Source: Peteryoungia desertarenae (lineage in GTDB: Bacteria > Pseudomonadota > Alphaproteobacteria > Rhizobiales > Rhizobiaceae). Taken from it: DNA of 64,000 nt. How positions within the stretch are numbered: position 1 is the first letter of the stretch; the number at the start of each line of letters is the position of its first letter. Position numbers and translations under genes: made by a program. This document shows, one piece after another, positions 31,851 to 36,104 of this stretch. The stretch spans positions 3,526,543-3,590,542 of the forward strand of contig NZ_CP058350.1 of assembly GCF_005860795.2 (NCBI RefSeq), written 5' to 3'. The notes below the pieces were generated by a model, which was given only the letters and a program-made list of their open reading frames with translations, did not search any database and was not told the DNA's origin.

Positions 31851-31865
31851 GTTTCGGTTTTGTTC
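31851..31865 (+). promoter_or_regulatory. Candidate LexA (SOS) box upstream of ruvC, one mismatch
   Basis: GTTT-N7-GTTC (31851-31865) matches the alphaproteobacterial LexA motif GTTC-N7-GTTC except for the last base of the first half. It ends 45 nt before the ruvC ATG, a suitable place for operator control. Confidence 0.55.
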
Positions 31866-31910: not shown

Positions 31911-32423
31911 ATGACCTCTACGATTCGCATCATCGGCATCGACCCGGGCCTCCGCCGCTGCGGCTGGGGCATTATCGAAACGTTCGGAAATTCGCTGCGC
32001 TTCGTCGCGTCAGGGACCGTGACCTCCGATGGCGACATGGATCTGGCCTCCCGCCTCTGCCAGCTGCATGACGGGCTGGCCGAAGTCGTCCACACCTACA
32101 AGCCCGATGAGGCCGCCGTCGAGCAGACCTTCGTCAACAAGGATGCGGTGGCCACGCTGAAGCTCGGCCAGGCCCGCGGCATCGCCATGCTGGTCCCTGC
32201 CCGCGCCGGACTGCCGGTTGCGGAATATGCGCCGAATGCCGTGAAGAAGTCCGTCATCGGTGTCGGCCATGGCGAAAAGCAGCAGATCCACATGATGCTG
32301 AAGATCCTGATGCCCAAAGCCGAATTCAAGGGCAACGACGCCGCCGACGCACTCGCCATCGCCATCTGCCACGCCCACAATCGCGGCGGCGACAGGATGC
32401 GCAAAGTGCTAGCCTCCGCCTGA
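31911..32423 (+). CDS. ruvC: Holliday junction endonuclease RuvC
   Basis: A 170-residue resolvase with the first catalytic Asp in [14 protein letters not shown] (about D11), Glu in [10 protein letters not shown] near 68-77 and the acidic pair in [16 protein letters not shown] near 139-154, all of which are expected for RuvC. It cuts Holliday junctions symmetrically when RuvAB branch migration presents them. It is the first gene of an operon that continues, unusually, with a toxin-antitoxin pair before ruvA. Confidence 0.96.
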
Positions 32424-32426
32424 TTT

Positions 32427-32441
32427 GTTCTTGACTTGTTC
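32427..32441 (+). promoter_or_regulatory. Perfect alphaproteobacterial LexA (SOS) box in front of vapBC1
   Basis: GTTCTTGACTTGTTC at 32427-32441 is an exact GTTC-N7-GTTC direct repeat, the LexA operator of Rhizobiaceae and relatives. Its spacer contains the -35 hexamer TTGACT, so bound LexA would occlude RNA polymerase. It lies between the ruvC stop (32423) and the antitoxin start (32480). Confidence 0.75.
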
Positions 32442-32460
32442 CGCCAGTAGGAATTATCCT
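32431..32460 (+). promoter_or_regulatory. Internal promoter of vapBC1-ruvA
   Basis: TTGACT (32431-32436) and TATCCT (32455-32460) are separated by 18 nt. An imperfect dyad around the -10 (AGGA-ATTA-TCCT, 32449-32460) could be the antitoxin's own operator. The start would be about 15 nt before the antitoxin ATG, and GGAGG at 32470-32474 is the ribosome site. Confidence 0.6.
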
Positions 32461-32479
32461 TACCGAATTGGAGGCGAAC

Positions 32480-32731
32480 ATGCGCGTGACATCCAAGGGC
32501 CAGGTGACCATTCCCCGCGATCTGCGCGAACTGGTTGGCATAGAACCGAATTCGGAAGTCGTTTTCACCGTTGAGGACGGCAGGCTGATGCTTGCGCCCA
32601 AGAACGGTGCCGAGGCTCTCAGGGAAAAGGAGCGTTTGGCTGGACTTATGGAGACCCTGGCGCGACTGGAAGGCACAGGCGATCAGGATGTTGACGCAGA
32701 GACTCTGATGCAGATGACACGGGACCGCTAG
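32480..32731 (+). CDS. vapB: AbrB/SpoVT-type antitoxin (module 1)
   Basis: An 83-residue swapped-hairpin AbrB DNA-binding protein: MRVTSKGQVTIPRDLRELVG with the expected GQVTIP and a second strand VVFTVEDGRLMLAPK, then a helical acidic C-terminus that would bind and block the toxin. I chose the ATG at 32480 with GGAGG 5 nt before it; an in-frame TTG at 32468 would overlap that site. The toxin gene starts 3 bp after its stop. It is inserted between ruvC and ruvA and under a perfect SOS box. Confidence 0.88.
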   Translation: MRVTSKGQVTIPRDLRELVGIEPNSEVVFTVEDGRLMLAPKNGAEALREKERLAGLMETLARLEGTGDQDVDAETLMQMTRDR

Positions 32732-32734
32732 GTT

Positions 32735-33151
32735 ATGGCCGTACTCGTTGACACGAACGTGCTCGTCGATGTTGCCGTGCGCGATCCGAAATGGCTCGAA
32801 TGGTCTCGCGGCCAGCTTTTGCGCTTGGCGCGTCACGAGCCGCTGGTGATCAATCCGATCATCTATTCCGAATTTTCCGTTCGTTATTCCGATCGCGATA
32901 GCGTCGACGCCCTCCTGCCGGTTTCGGACTTCCATCGCGAGAGCCTCCCCTGGGCGGCTGGCTTCGCAGCTGGCGTGGCATTCAGGATCTACCGTCTCGC
33001 AGGCGGAGGACGTGAGCGCGTGCTGCCGGATTTCCTGATTGGAGCCCATGCCGCCATCAGGGGTCACAAGATCCTGACCCGGGATCCAAAAGGCTATCGC
33101 AGCTACTTCCCCGACCTCGACATCATCTCCCCCGACACCCATCCCCTGTAA
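32735..33151 (+). CDS. vapC: PIN-domain ribonuclease toxin (VapC type, module 1)
   Basis: A 138-residue PIN protein with all four acidic active-site residues visible: D6 (VDTNVLVD), E46 (YSEFSV), D99 ([10 protein letters not shown]) and D117 (TRDPKGY). VapC toxins are Mg-dependent RNases that usually cut tRNA or rRNA loops and arrest translation; the antitoxin upstream neutralises them. The active site appears intact. The gene ends 16 bp before ruvA and leaves no room for a separate terminator, so ruvA should be read from the same transcript. Confidence 0.88.
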
Positions 33152-33167
33152 CGCGACGGACGCATCC

Positions 33168-33785
33168 ATGATCGGCAAACTCAAAGGCACCATTGACGAG
33201 ATTGGCGACGACTATGTTCTCGTCGATGTCCACGGCGTCTGCTACGTCGCCCACTGCTCGTCGCGAACACTTGGCCGCATCGGCTCGCCCGGCGAGGCCG
33301 TCGTGCTCTTCATCGAAACCTATGTCCGCGAGGACCAGCTGAAACTCTTCGGCTTCCTGAGCGCGCTGGAGCGGGAGTGGTTCAACATCCTGCAGAGCGT
33401 GCAGGGTGTCGGCGCCAAGGTGGCGCTGGCCGTGCTTTCCACCCTGACCCCGTCGGAACTCGCCAATGCCATTGCCCTGCAGGACAAGGCCGCGATCTCC
33501 CGCGCCCCCGGCGTCGGCCCAAAGGTCGCGCTCCGCCTTGTCACTGAACTGAAGAACAAGGCCCCCGCCTTTGCCGGTGAAGCCTCCGGCAATATCGGGC
33601 TGAAGCAGGAGCTCGGCGAAGGCGTGGCTTTAGCCCCGGTTGCTGATGCTGTCTCAGCGCTCACCAATCTCGGCTATTCCCGCGACCAGGCCGCCAATGC
33701 GGTGGCGGCGGCGTTGAAGAACGGCGGCGAAGGCGCTGACAGCGCCAAGCTGATACGGCTGGGGCTGAAGGAGTTGTCGCGGTGA
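33168..33785 (+). CDS. ruvA: Holliday junction DNA helicase subunit RuvA
   Basis: A 205-residue junction-binding protein. It has the N-terminal OB-fold ([26 protein letters not shown] at the start), the tandem helix-hairpin-helix region with [14 protein letters not shown] near 79-92 and [17 protein letters not shown] near 113-129, and the C-terminal RuvB-contacting domain ([19 protein letters not shown] near 166-184). The gene is flanked on both sides by toxin-antitoxin modules in the same direction, which is unusual because ruvA normally adjoins ruvC and ruvB directly. Confidence 0.96.
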
Positions 33786-33802
33786 GTTGTCCTCCGAATT
33801 TG

Positions 33803-33831
33803 TCTCGTTCCGACATTTCTGATAAAGTTGG
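33803..33831 (+). promoter_or_regulatory. Candidate promoter/operator of vapBC2
   Basis: Within the 73-bp gap after ruvA, TTGTCT is followed about 17 nt later by TAAAGT. A TTCCGAC/GTTGGAA inverted repeat spans the spacer and -10. No GTTC-N7-GTTC box is present here. Confidence 0.4.
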
Positions 33832-33858
33832 AAAAACATCAAAACGTCGGAGACTCTG

Positions 33859-34146
33859 ATGAAAACATGGGAAGTTACCATGTCCCCCAAAGGTCAGATC
33901 ACCATTCCGAAAGAAATGCGTGAGCTGCTCAATCTGAGTCCCGGCGATCAGTTGGTCTACAGCGTGATTGACGGCGAAATTGTCATCACTCCCAAGAACA
34001 TCGACCTCAAGGATCTGGCCGGTTTTCTTGGCAAGCCGCCAAACGGACACGCAACACTGGAGGAAATCGACGAAGCAGTCGTCCAGACGGCAGGCGCAAA
34101 CGCACTTTCTACCGGGGGTGACGACCCATCGGATCTTGCGGCATGA
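33859..34146 (+). CDS. vapB: AbrB/SpoVT-type antitoxin (module 2)
   Basis: A 95-residue antitoxin with the AbrB swapped-hairpin fold MSPKGQITIPKEMRELLNLSPGDQLVYSVIDGEIVITPKN (residues about 7-47) and a variable acidic C-terminus that should contact its toxin. The sequence differs clearly from the module 1 antitoxin outside the fold, so this is not a recent tandem duplication. The stop overlaps the toxin start by four bases (ATGA at 34143-34146). It lies between ruvA and ruvB. Confidence 0.88.
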   Translation: MKTWEVTMSPKGQITIPKEMRELLNLSPGDQLVYSVIDGEIVITPKNIDLKDLAGFLGKPPNGHATLEEIDEAVVQTAGANALSTGGDDPSDLAA

Positions 34147-34547
34147 CCCTTGTTGGCCTTGATACGAACATCTTGATCCGGCTTCTGACCAATGACGATC
34201 CGGATCAACGGCGTCTGGCTCTAAGTTTTGCCGAAGGGCTTGGAAAGGACTACCTCGCCTTTCTCCCTCTGATTTGCGTATTGGAATTGGACTGGGCATT
34301 GCGCTCGCAACTTGGCTACGGAAGACGCGAAGCCTCGACGGCGATCGCGAAACTGCTGCAGGTCCGGGGCCTGACTGTCGAAAGCCACGACCTCGTCGTA
34401 AAAGCACTGCGGCAGGTCGACCAGAAGAATGCCGACTTCGCCGACGCCTTGATTGCCGCCCGGTCTATTCAAGAGGGCTGCACCTCCGTAAAGACCTTCG
34501 ACAAACGCGCCGCCTCCCGTGTGCCCGCCATGGAACTTCTCGCATGA
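34143..34547 (+). CDS. vapC: PIN-domain ribonuclease toxin (VapC type, module 2)
   Basis: A 134-residue PIN protein. The acidic residues are D7 ([11 protein letters not shown]), E48 (VLELDWAL), D98 ([10 protein letters not shown]) and D120 (TFDKRA), so the active site is complete. It resembles PIN toxins of the type with a C-terminal KTFDKRAA motif. Its start overlaps the antitoxin stop and its stop overlaps the ruvB start (ATGATGA at 34544-34550), so its translation should be coupled both to the antitoxin and to RuvB synthesis. Confidence 0.88.
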
Positions 34548-35584
34548 TGACCAACAACCCCATCCTCTCGCCCGAAAAGAAGGGGGAAGATCTCGATGCA
34601 GCACTCCGCCCGCAGTCGCTGGATGACTTCACTGGCCAGGCGGAAGCACGCGCCAATCTGAAAATCTTCATCGAGGCTGCGAAGAACCGGGGCGAAGCGC
34701 TGGATCACGTGCTCTTCGTCGGCCCGCCGGGGCTTGGCAAGACGACGCTTGCCCAGATCATGGCCAAGGAACTCGGCGTCAATTTCCGCTCGACCTCGGG
34801 GCCCGTCATCGCCAAGGCTGGCGATCTCGCCGCCCTTTTGACCAATCTCGAAGAGCGCGATGTGCTCTTCATCGACGAAATCCATCGCTTGAGCCCCGCC
34901 GTCGAGGAAATCCTCTATCCGGCCATGGAGGACTTCCAGCTCGACCTGATCATCGGCGAAGGGCCGGCAGCCCGCTCGGTGAAGATCGACCTGTCGAAAT
35001 TCACCCTCGTTGCCGCCACCACCCGTCTCGGCCTGTTGACCACCCCCTTGCGGGATCGTTTTGGCATTCCGGTACGGCTGAATTTCTACACGGTCGAGGA
35101 ACTCGAATCGATCGTCCGCCGTGGCGCCCGGCTCCTCAATCTGCCGATGACGGACGACGGCGCCCGCGAAGTTGCCCGCCGCGCCCGCGGCACGCCACGC
35201 ATTGCCGGCCGCCTGCTGCGCCGTGTCCGCGACTTCGCCGAGGTCGCCCGCGCGGAAGCGGTAACCCGGCAGATCGCGGACGAAGCACTCACGCGGCTCA
35301 ACGTCGACAATATGGGCCTCGACCAGCTCGACATGCGCTATCTCTCGATGATCGCCGTGAATTTCGGCGGCGGCCCTGTCGGCATCGAAACCATCGCCGC
35401 CGGTCTCTCGGAACCGCGCGACGCGATCGAGGACATCATCGAGCCCTATATGATCCAGCAGGGCTTCATCCAGCGCACCCCGCGTGGCCGTGTCTTGACG
35501 GCGACTGCCTGGAAGCACCTGGGCATGACGCCGCCAAAAGATCTCGAAGCGGCGCAATTCCGCCTGACGCTCGAGGACGATTAA
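34544..35584 (+). CDS. ruvB: Holliday junction branch-migration ATPase RuvB
   Basis: A 346-residue AAA+ motor starting [20 protein letters not shown]. Walker A is GPPGLGKT (60-67), Walker [10 protein letters not shown] near 108-116, sensor 1 is in [10 protein letters not shown] near 157-166, the Arg finger is in PLRDRFGI, and a C-terminal winged-helix follows. The ATG at 34544 is within the stop of the preceding toxin gene; longer upstream frames are antisense-like artefacts lacking family similarity. RuvB drives branch migration with RuvA. It is the last gene of the split ruv operon. Confidence 0.96.
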
Positions 35585-35588
35585 GACC

Positions 35589-36104
35589 GTGTCCAAACGC
35601 ACCCTGATCACCATCAAGGACGGTAAGCAGCGGTTCAACCATCGCATCGCAGGCCTCGCCTTCCGCGACGGTCATGTTCTGGTCCACCGCGCCACCCATG
35701 AGAGTTTCTGGACCTTTCCCGGAGGCCGGGCCGAAATCGGCGAAACTTCGGCGGAAACGCTCATGCGCGAAATGCAGGAGGAACTGGGTGTCGAGGCCAG
35801 GGTCCAGGAACTGCTCTGGATCGTCGAGAATTTCTTCGACTACGAGGGCAAGGCCTGGCATGAACTGGGCCTTTACTACCGCATGGAGATCCCGGACCAC
35901 TTCCCCTTCCATTCGACCGACATCATCCACCGCAACGAGGACGGCAAGAACAGCCTTGAGTTCAAATGGGTTCAGGCAACACGGGAAGCGCTGATTGCTC
36001 TCGATATTCCGCCTTACTTCATTGCCGACGAGATCGAATCCTTGCCGATCTCTCCGAAGCACATCGTCTGGCATGACGGCGATCTCGATGGGAAACAGGG
36101 CTGA
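35589..36104 (+). CDS. NUDIX hydrolase
   Basis: A 171-residue protein with a full Nudix box GGRAEIGETSAETLMREMQEELG (about residues 47-69), which matches G-x5-E-x7-R-E-x2-E-E-x-G. The start is a GTG 5 bp after the ruvB stop, indicating cotranscription with the ruv operon. The remainder (FFDYEGKAWHELGLYYRMEIPD) resembles ADP-sugar/mutT-like Nudix proteins, but the substrate cannot be assigned. Its position directly behind ruvB could suggest a nucleotide-cleaning role with repair, which is only inference. Confidence 0.85.
   Translation: MSKRTLITIKDGKQRFNHRIAGLAFRDGHVLVHRATHESFWTFPGGRAEIGETSAETLMREMQEELGVEARVQELLWIVENFFDYEGKAWHELGLYYRMEIPDHFPFHSTDIIHRNEDGKNSLEFKWVQATREALIALDIPPYFIADEIESLPISPKHIVWHDGDLDGKQG

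Follow-up and report, generated by a model that had tools for sequence, protein, structure and literature searches.

Putative VapBC modules in both gaps of the rhizobial ruvCAB operon, the first of them behind a LexA box

In the ruvCAB operon of Peteryoungia desertarenae (Rhizobiaceae), each of the two gaps between the three repair genes holds a gene pair that encodes an AbrB/MazE-type antitoxin and a PIN-domain toxin. The operon lies in a stretch of 64,000 nucleotides (hereafter, the window; contig NZ_CP058350.1, positions 3,526,543 to 3,590,542) that had previously been interpreted from the sequence alone. Analysis of the window and of related loci indicates that these are probably VapBC pairs built into the operon. 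Module 1 begins just downstream of a LexA box match and is hence predicted to be SOS-induced; it is probably a resident pair co-transcribed with ruvA and ruvB.

The LexA box and the promoter of module 1

The sequence-only reading had overlooked this box, which is a perfect match to the alphaproteobacterial LexA box GTTC-N7-GTTC (PMC3323433; PMC12700426, as given in the available parts of these papers) and lies 38 bp before antitoxin 1, in a genome that also carries lexA. A −35-like TTGACT is contained within the box and a −10-like hexamer follows 17-18 nt further on; in a consensus scan, 2 promoter-like sites were found in 4 kb, with 0.6 expected. The −10-like hexamer overlaps an imperfect inverted repeat, recognized by eye, which is a candidate VapB operator; no perfect inverted repeat with arms of at least 5 is present in the window leader.

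The comparison covered 140 loci, namely 80 named loci centred on the top-ranking RuvA relatives (the best 80 of at least 539, chosen by RuvA and not by the box), 63 stretches from other genomes of the family and the window itself, less 4 duplicates (L161, L163, L164, L165). Because many loci were picked for the box or for a toxin relative, the fractions given here are no unbiased census. We refer to the ruvC-ruvA gap as slot 1 and to the ruvA-ruvB gap as slot 2; slot 1 was typed in 135 loci (L053, L125, L127, L129 and L130 were left untyped).

Every one of the 81 loci whose slot 1 holds a toxin gene has the LexA box, compared with 12 of the 52 loci that have neither slot-1 gene (Fisher's test, 1e-23, kinship ignored), and 78 of the 81 boxes are the identical 15-mer, with variable bases on both sides. 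The same holds for the named set, which was not picked by the box (47/47 loci with a slot-1 toxin, 4/32 without). In an even sample of 199 genomes of the family, the strict pattern GTTCTTGACNTGTTC was detected in 83 genomes and its reversed control in 2; anywhere in the genome, the pattern occurs in 56/56 genomes with a listed toxin-1 relative beside ruvA vs 27/143 others. When independent pairs are taken from the RuvCAB tree, the box follows the module in approximately 7 of 16 pairs and the opposite is seen in none (median p 0.016, range 0.004-0.06). The geometry of the leader is conserved as well: the antitoxin starts 36 to 57 bases (median 37) past the box in the 79 readable leaders, and 46 of these contain, between the box and the antitoxin, a perfect inverted repeat with arms of at least 8 (shuffled mean 0.34). 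By analogy with the Caulobacter higBA genes discussed below, we infer that the module 1 promoter is jointly under LexA and VapB.

Seventeen relatives of module 1 located away from ruv have the antitoxin and operator-like repeats, and none of them has an exact box in the 700 bp upstream; one-mismatch matches are found in 6 of the 17, at scattered distances. In the one locus with two slot-1 modules (L118), each has its own box. Outside the family, the strict pattern was detected in 14 of 145 genomes, and 10 of the 15 stretches taken from these 14 genomes (10 genomes, 5 families) carry ruvC, the box and ruvA at one site and lack any match to the toxins or antitoxins of the window, a result that leaves room for unrelated small genes. 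Module-free loci with the box directly before ruvA are also found inside the family, some of them with ruvC elsewhere. Considering these module-free loci outside and inside the family, the box is most likely an internal SOS promoter of ruvAB that is older than the module, comparable to the one described in Vibrionaceae (PMC3323433), and module 1 would have settled between the box and ruvA; repeated gain of the box is a possible alternative to a single older box. The possibility that module 1 brought the box along was dropped, given that the non-ruv relatives lack an exact box and that the 10 outside stretches have the box without the module. At six loci (L125, L127, L129, L130, L122 and L132), ruvC is not beside ruvA or is about 1 kb off, and the box still precedes ruvA.

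The features of the locus are collected in Table 1. The gene order described in the sequence-only reading is borne out, as are its tight junctions, namely gaps of 3 bp (antitoxin 1 to toxin 1) and 16 bp (toxin 1 to ruvA), an ATGA overlap of antitoxin 2 with toxin 2 and an ATGATGA overlap of toxin 2 with ruvB. All seven products (RuvC, MazE/AbrB, PIN, RuvA, MazE/AbrB, PIN and RuvB) exceed the Pfam cut-offs; NCBIfam gave no match for toxin 1 or toxin 2. The start of antitoxin 1 is probably the ATG at 32480, which is preceded by GGAGG at 32470-32474 and is therefore favoured over the TTG at 32468 that opens the longest open reading frame (ORF).

Table 1. Features of the ruvCAB locus (positions in the window)
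Feature	Position	Strand	Basis or remark
Near-match to LexA box, GTTTCGGTTTTGTTC	31851..31865	+	1 mismatch to GTTCN7GTTC; 60 bp upstream of ruvC
ruvC	31911..32423	+	Pfam RuvC 1.7e-45
LexA (SOS) box, GTTCTTGACTTGTTC	32427..32441	+	pattern match; 3 bp past ruvC stop
Predicted promoter	32431..32460	+	consensus scan; leader geometry conserved
Antitoxin 1, AbrB/MazE type, VapB-like	32480..32731	+	Pfam MazE_antitoxin 9.9e-13
Toxin 1, PIN domain, predicted VapC fold	32735..33151	+	
ruvA	33168..33785	+	NCBIfam ruvA 7.6e-56
Antitoxin 2, AbrB/MazE type	33859..34146	+	Pfam MazE_antitoxin 1.5e-12
Toxin 2, PIN domain	34143..34547	+	Pfam PIN 1.4e-10
ruvB	34544..35584	+	NCBIfam RuvB 8.6e-156; start overlaps toxin 2 stop (ATGATGA)

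Integrity, distribution and history of the two modules

Both modules look like intact VapBC-type pairs. In each of them, a MazE/AbrB antitoxin gene lies immediately upstream of the toxin gene, and PIN is the only Pfam family that either toxin matches at E up to 0.001; PIN was detected by Pfam in 27/28 slot-1 and 34/34 slot-2 members scanned. The claim that the acidic residues of the PIN domain are kept in both toxins is confirmed (D6, E46, D99 and D117 in toxin 1; D7, E48, D98, D101 and D120 in toxin 2). Among the 81 slot-1 rows, D6 is found in 81, E46 in 80 (one D), D99 in 81 and D117 in 79, and among the 85 slot-2 rows, D7 in 85, E48 in 85, D98 in 68 (with E in 12 more), D101 in 82 and D120 in 84, the window's own toxin being counted twice. 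Within 21 chosen genome pairs, the ratio of nonsynonymous to synonymous divergence (dN/dS) of the toxins is 0.03-0.10 for pairs with a shared allele and 0.12-0.60 for pairs with different alleles and a high dS, a pattern that indicates purifying selection on both toxins. For toxin 1, a confident VapC-like structure model was obtained; for toxin 2, the model is confident as well, but the structural alignment spans the first 81 residues only. Single-sequence searches of the PDB found no match for either toxin, and profile searches linked toxin 1 weakly to VapC and toxin 2 to PcrIIC1. This partner protein of Cas9 is the best match of solved structure for toxin 2 by profile; by fold, it is tied with VapC chains. 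The two modules differ from each other, as previously noted, with toxin 1 and toxin 2 falling into different groups.

The synteny comparison that the sequence-only reading had called for reveals genomes with and without each module. Slot 1 holds a toxin gene in 81/135 typed loci, three of them decayed (L064, L068, L131), and slot 2 in 84/140, including the remnant L042. Among the 135 loci typed for both slots, both are filled in 58, slot 1 only in 23, slot 2 only in 22 and neither in 32; in the named loci alone, slot 1 is filled in 47/79, slot 2 in 48/80 and both in 34. The association between the occupancy of the two slots is not significant (median p 0.375). Besides filled and empty sites, there are decayed ones, with antitoxin remnants without a toxin in L006, L133, L171 and L177, a toxin tail in L042 and an antitoxin-toxin fusion produced by deletion in L131, and tandem ones, in slot 1 of L118 and in slot 2 of L119 and L026 (in the latter, the first toxin is broken). 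Toxin relatives lie beside ruvA more often than chance: among the matches listed within 150 genomes with a located ruvA, this is the case for 57/65 toxin-2 relatives and 57/86 toxin-1 relatives. A search at E 1e-15 or better detected relatives of toxin 2 in 4/145 genomes from outside the family; in two of these four, both from one family, the relative is located between ruvA and ruvB.

The second module is tightly joined to ruvB. With starts estimated by alignment, toxin 2 overlaps the ruvB start in 77/83 loci; the overlap is 4 nt in 63 of them. The last codons of this toxin (...MELLA stop) are conserved and occupy the expected position of the ruvB ribosome site. An overlap of toxin 1 with ruvA is seen in 21/79 loci; in most of the others, the toxin gene stops 7-25 bp short of ruvA. 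ATGGAA occurs no more than 25 nt from ruvB at 19 of the 56 slot-2 sites that lack a toxin, a count made without a control, and the last toxin codons are still readable by eye at the toxin-free L001, L006, L009, L039 and L042. ruvB may need the last toxin codons, and the leftover codons are as expected in that case.

The history of the modules appears to include exchange and loss and, for slot 1, long residence. The minimum number of state changes on the RuvCAB tree is 27 for slot 1, 35 for slot 2 and 18 for the box. In a quick, unrooted tree of 138 columns, a branch with a support of 100 separates 80 slot-1 toxin rows from 17 non-ruv rows; these 17 were picked by likeness to toxin 1, so that closer kin of divergent slot-1 toxins could be missed. 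Given this separation, slot 1 seems to house a long-resident lineage which has been swapped and lost among ruv loci. The picture is less clear for the slot-2 toxins, whose best tree implies 4 changes of location (ruv vs non-ruv), while the starred branches alone force 1; a single origin of the slot-2 toxins is accordingly not claimed. Near relatives can share the allele of one slot and yet differ in the other, which suggests allele exchange through the flanking ruv genes; in the pair L021/L031, dS is 0.08-0.11 in slot 2 vs 0.46 for ruvA. The earlier proposal that each module inserted itself into the operon and became coupled to it is upheld in its second part, the tight coupling to the ruv genes; a recent self-insertion in this genome is not supported for either module, and slot 1 looks like an old resident.

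Some other families also have ORFs between ruvA and ruvB, namely one for a 235-amino-acid membrane-like protein in L190 and L191 and one of 160 amino acids in L192; these were rejected as toxin pairs by eye, and it seems that the ruvA-ruvB gap accepts inserts more generally. The record of L010 is titled as an Arenimonas metagenome-assembled genome, and its ruv locus is rhizobial with both modules, so it is probably mis-binned.

Relation to known systems

SOS-controlled toxin-antitoxin pairs are already known from the available parts of the reports on yafNO (PMC2814082) and higBA (PMC13384398), and so is a VapBC pair beside ruvA in one species (PMC11406972). In Rhizobium leguminosarum 3841, VapBC (RL3987-RL3988) is encoded immediately upstream of ruvA, which, judging by the text of that paper, is likely the same slot-1 arrangement, and vapB, vapC, ruvA and ruvB all belong to the INSeq core set for root attachment (PMC11406972). 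The authors of that study interpret this as a role of VapBC; the result is also as would be expected if vapBC insertions were polar on ruvAB. The available text of the report concerns a single species and a root-attachment screen and does not mention a LexA box, a second slot, the distribution of the modules or their evolution.

The dinB-yafNO genes of Escherichia coli similarly combine a toxin-antitoxin pair with a LexA-controlled repair operon; the pair is induced by mitomycin C and autoregulated but, unlike the modules described here, it encodes a RelE-like toxin and is a single pair that follows dinB instead of separating two repair genes (PMC2814082). The alphaproteobacterial higBA pair of Caulobacter crescentus is expressed from a promoter repressed by LexA and by the antitoxin HigA (PMC13384398). 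Neither module encodes a toxin of the RelE/HigB type, and the resemblance to these systems is in wiring only. In Vibrionaceae, separate LexA boxes precede ruvC and ruvAB, and inserted genes interrupt the operon in some species (PMC3323433); the available text of that paper does not describe these genes as toxin-antitoxin pairs. The text of Makarova 2009 (PMC2701414) contains no word beginning with ruv, and we found no report in the open-access literature of the SOS link, the second slot or the family-wide pattern. What appears to be new is a PIN-type pair behind the putative internal SOS promoter of ruvAB together with a second pair apparently locked to ruvB.

Possible functions

A tentative model can be outlined in which LexA binds the −35 region of the promoter and the VapB-VapC complex binds the −10/operator region, so that full opening of the promoter would require both the loss of LexA upon DNA damage and a shortage of antitoxin. 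The resulting single transcript would yield VapB, VapC, RuvA, the second pair and RuvB; with the antitoxin encoded first, SOS induction alone should not poison the cell. Removal of VapB by a stress protease would allow the PIN RNase to slow translation while Holliday junctions are processed, until renewed VapB and LexA end the slowdown. The same transcript would carry module 2, for which translational coupling to ruvB via the stop/start overlap is likely; such coupling would make a clean loss of toxin 2 costly. In this model, LexA and VapB binding, co-transcription, the toxicity of the PIN proteins and a benefit to the host are what we infer from the sequence, and growth arrest during repair is a prediction. 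The sequence-only reading had already envisaged, as one option, a device that makes growth arrest follow recombination repair, and the LexA box is the main sequence support for it.

Several observations weigh against SOS-controlled, resident modules of this kind. The modules are dispensable, with both slots empty in 32 of the 135 loci, and L064 carries a near-full toxin 1 behind an antitoxin with the front half deleted; the toxin may be weak there or the antitoxin remnant may still neutralise it. Genome-wide, GTTCN7GTTC is not enriched (122 sites vs 143 for the reversed control), so that the pattern alone was not taken as evidence, and in the window it is common by chance (3 matches vs 2.1 expected); the weight of the box comes from its position and conservation. 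Among 14 boxes inspected in the same genome, most of them chosen by eye for AT-rich cores, 4 precede SOS-type ORFs (lexA, uvrA, dinB and comM, by eye), and recA has no exact box. Slot-2 leaders contain no exact LexA box: the exact matches in slot 2 of L140, L144 and L153 are located 334-480 bp from its beginning, and the leaders of 3/80 named loci (L020, L025, L071) have a match with one mismatch. The box-first order comes from just 10 of the 145 outside genomes. Further, a near-box with at most 1 mismatch occurs at −65..−55 before ruvC in 108/134 loci (1/134 in a control window), and this site could drive induction in the way that the upstream dinB promoter drives that of yafNO, whose own-promoter box did not (PMC2814082). 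Finally, in the later-stage classes of the R. leguminosarum screen, vapB is placed apart from vapC, ruvA and ruvB (PMC11406972).

As to what maintains the modules, it is quite possible, at somewhat less than an even chance, that they are selfish passengers, that is, addiction cassettes kept by a conserved promoter and by their hold on the ruvB start, with no gain for the cell. The patchy occupancy, which implies no fewer than 27 state changes in slot 1 and 35 in slot 2, is consistent with this explanation, as are the tandem copies (L118, L119, L026), among which the second copy of L118 is preceded by a stretch that by eye resembles the end of ruvC, allele swaps such as that of L021/L031 and the last toxin codons retained by eye at toxin-free ruvA-ruvB sites. 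However, plain addiction needs no SOS control, and the box is found at every slot-1 toxin locus; the slot-1 lineage also stays at ruv. We put forward more tentatively a family-wide SOS checkpoint, in which a VapBC lineage residing in the internal SOS promoter of ruvAB would cleave RNA and slow translation during recombination repair, with alleles swapped via ruv and a second, ruvB-coupled VapC locking the operon.

The modules are unlikely to be regulators more than toxins, with VapB-VapC beside the LexA box acting as a second brake and as feedback on ruvAB. Operator-like inverted repeats do lie right behind the box, and the box precedes the antitoxin where slot 1 is filled and ruvA elsewhere; nevertheless, nearly all of the toxins retain the PIN acidic residues, for which a pure regulator would have no use. 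Phage defence, with allele swapping as an arms race and toxins freed when a phage disturbs ruv or SOS expression, appears improbable: some close genomes (L044/L046, L026/L027) have similar alleles in one slot and highly divergent ones in the other, but none of the four proteins has a PADLOC match (E up to 0.01). That the PIN proteins are DNA-repair nucleases partnering RuvAB, for which only the location speaks, is highly improbable, considering that each has an AbrB-type partner in the VapBC arrangement, that toxin 1 has a predicted VapC fold, that relatives of both toxins are also found away from ruv and that many genomes lack these proteins.

Whether chromosomal toxin-antitoxin pairs serve their host is a long-standing dispute, and the filled, empty, decayed and duplicated sites at one SOS-type promoter allow host benefit and selfish retention to be compared in near-identical operons. 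If the SOS-controlled arrangement is real, the control of ruvAB in many rhizobia would not be plain LexA control, and transposon phenotypes of vapBC in rhizobia may really be ruvAB phenotypes.

Other sites and genes near these elements include a Nudix hydrolase gene directly 3' of ruvB (window 35589-36104), a relative of which also adjoins ruvB in two loci from other families (L228 and L229). In the same genome, a LexA-type box (C1:3292985-3292999; L207) lies 224 bp before a GreA-like ORF recognized by eye. At another LexA-type box of this genome (C1:1874274-1874288; L201 and L227), a MazG-like ORF, again identified by eye, starts 18 bp after the box. The second relative of toxin 2 in this genome is a few hundred bases away, and this is possibly another SOS-linked PIN locus.

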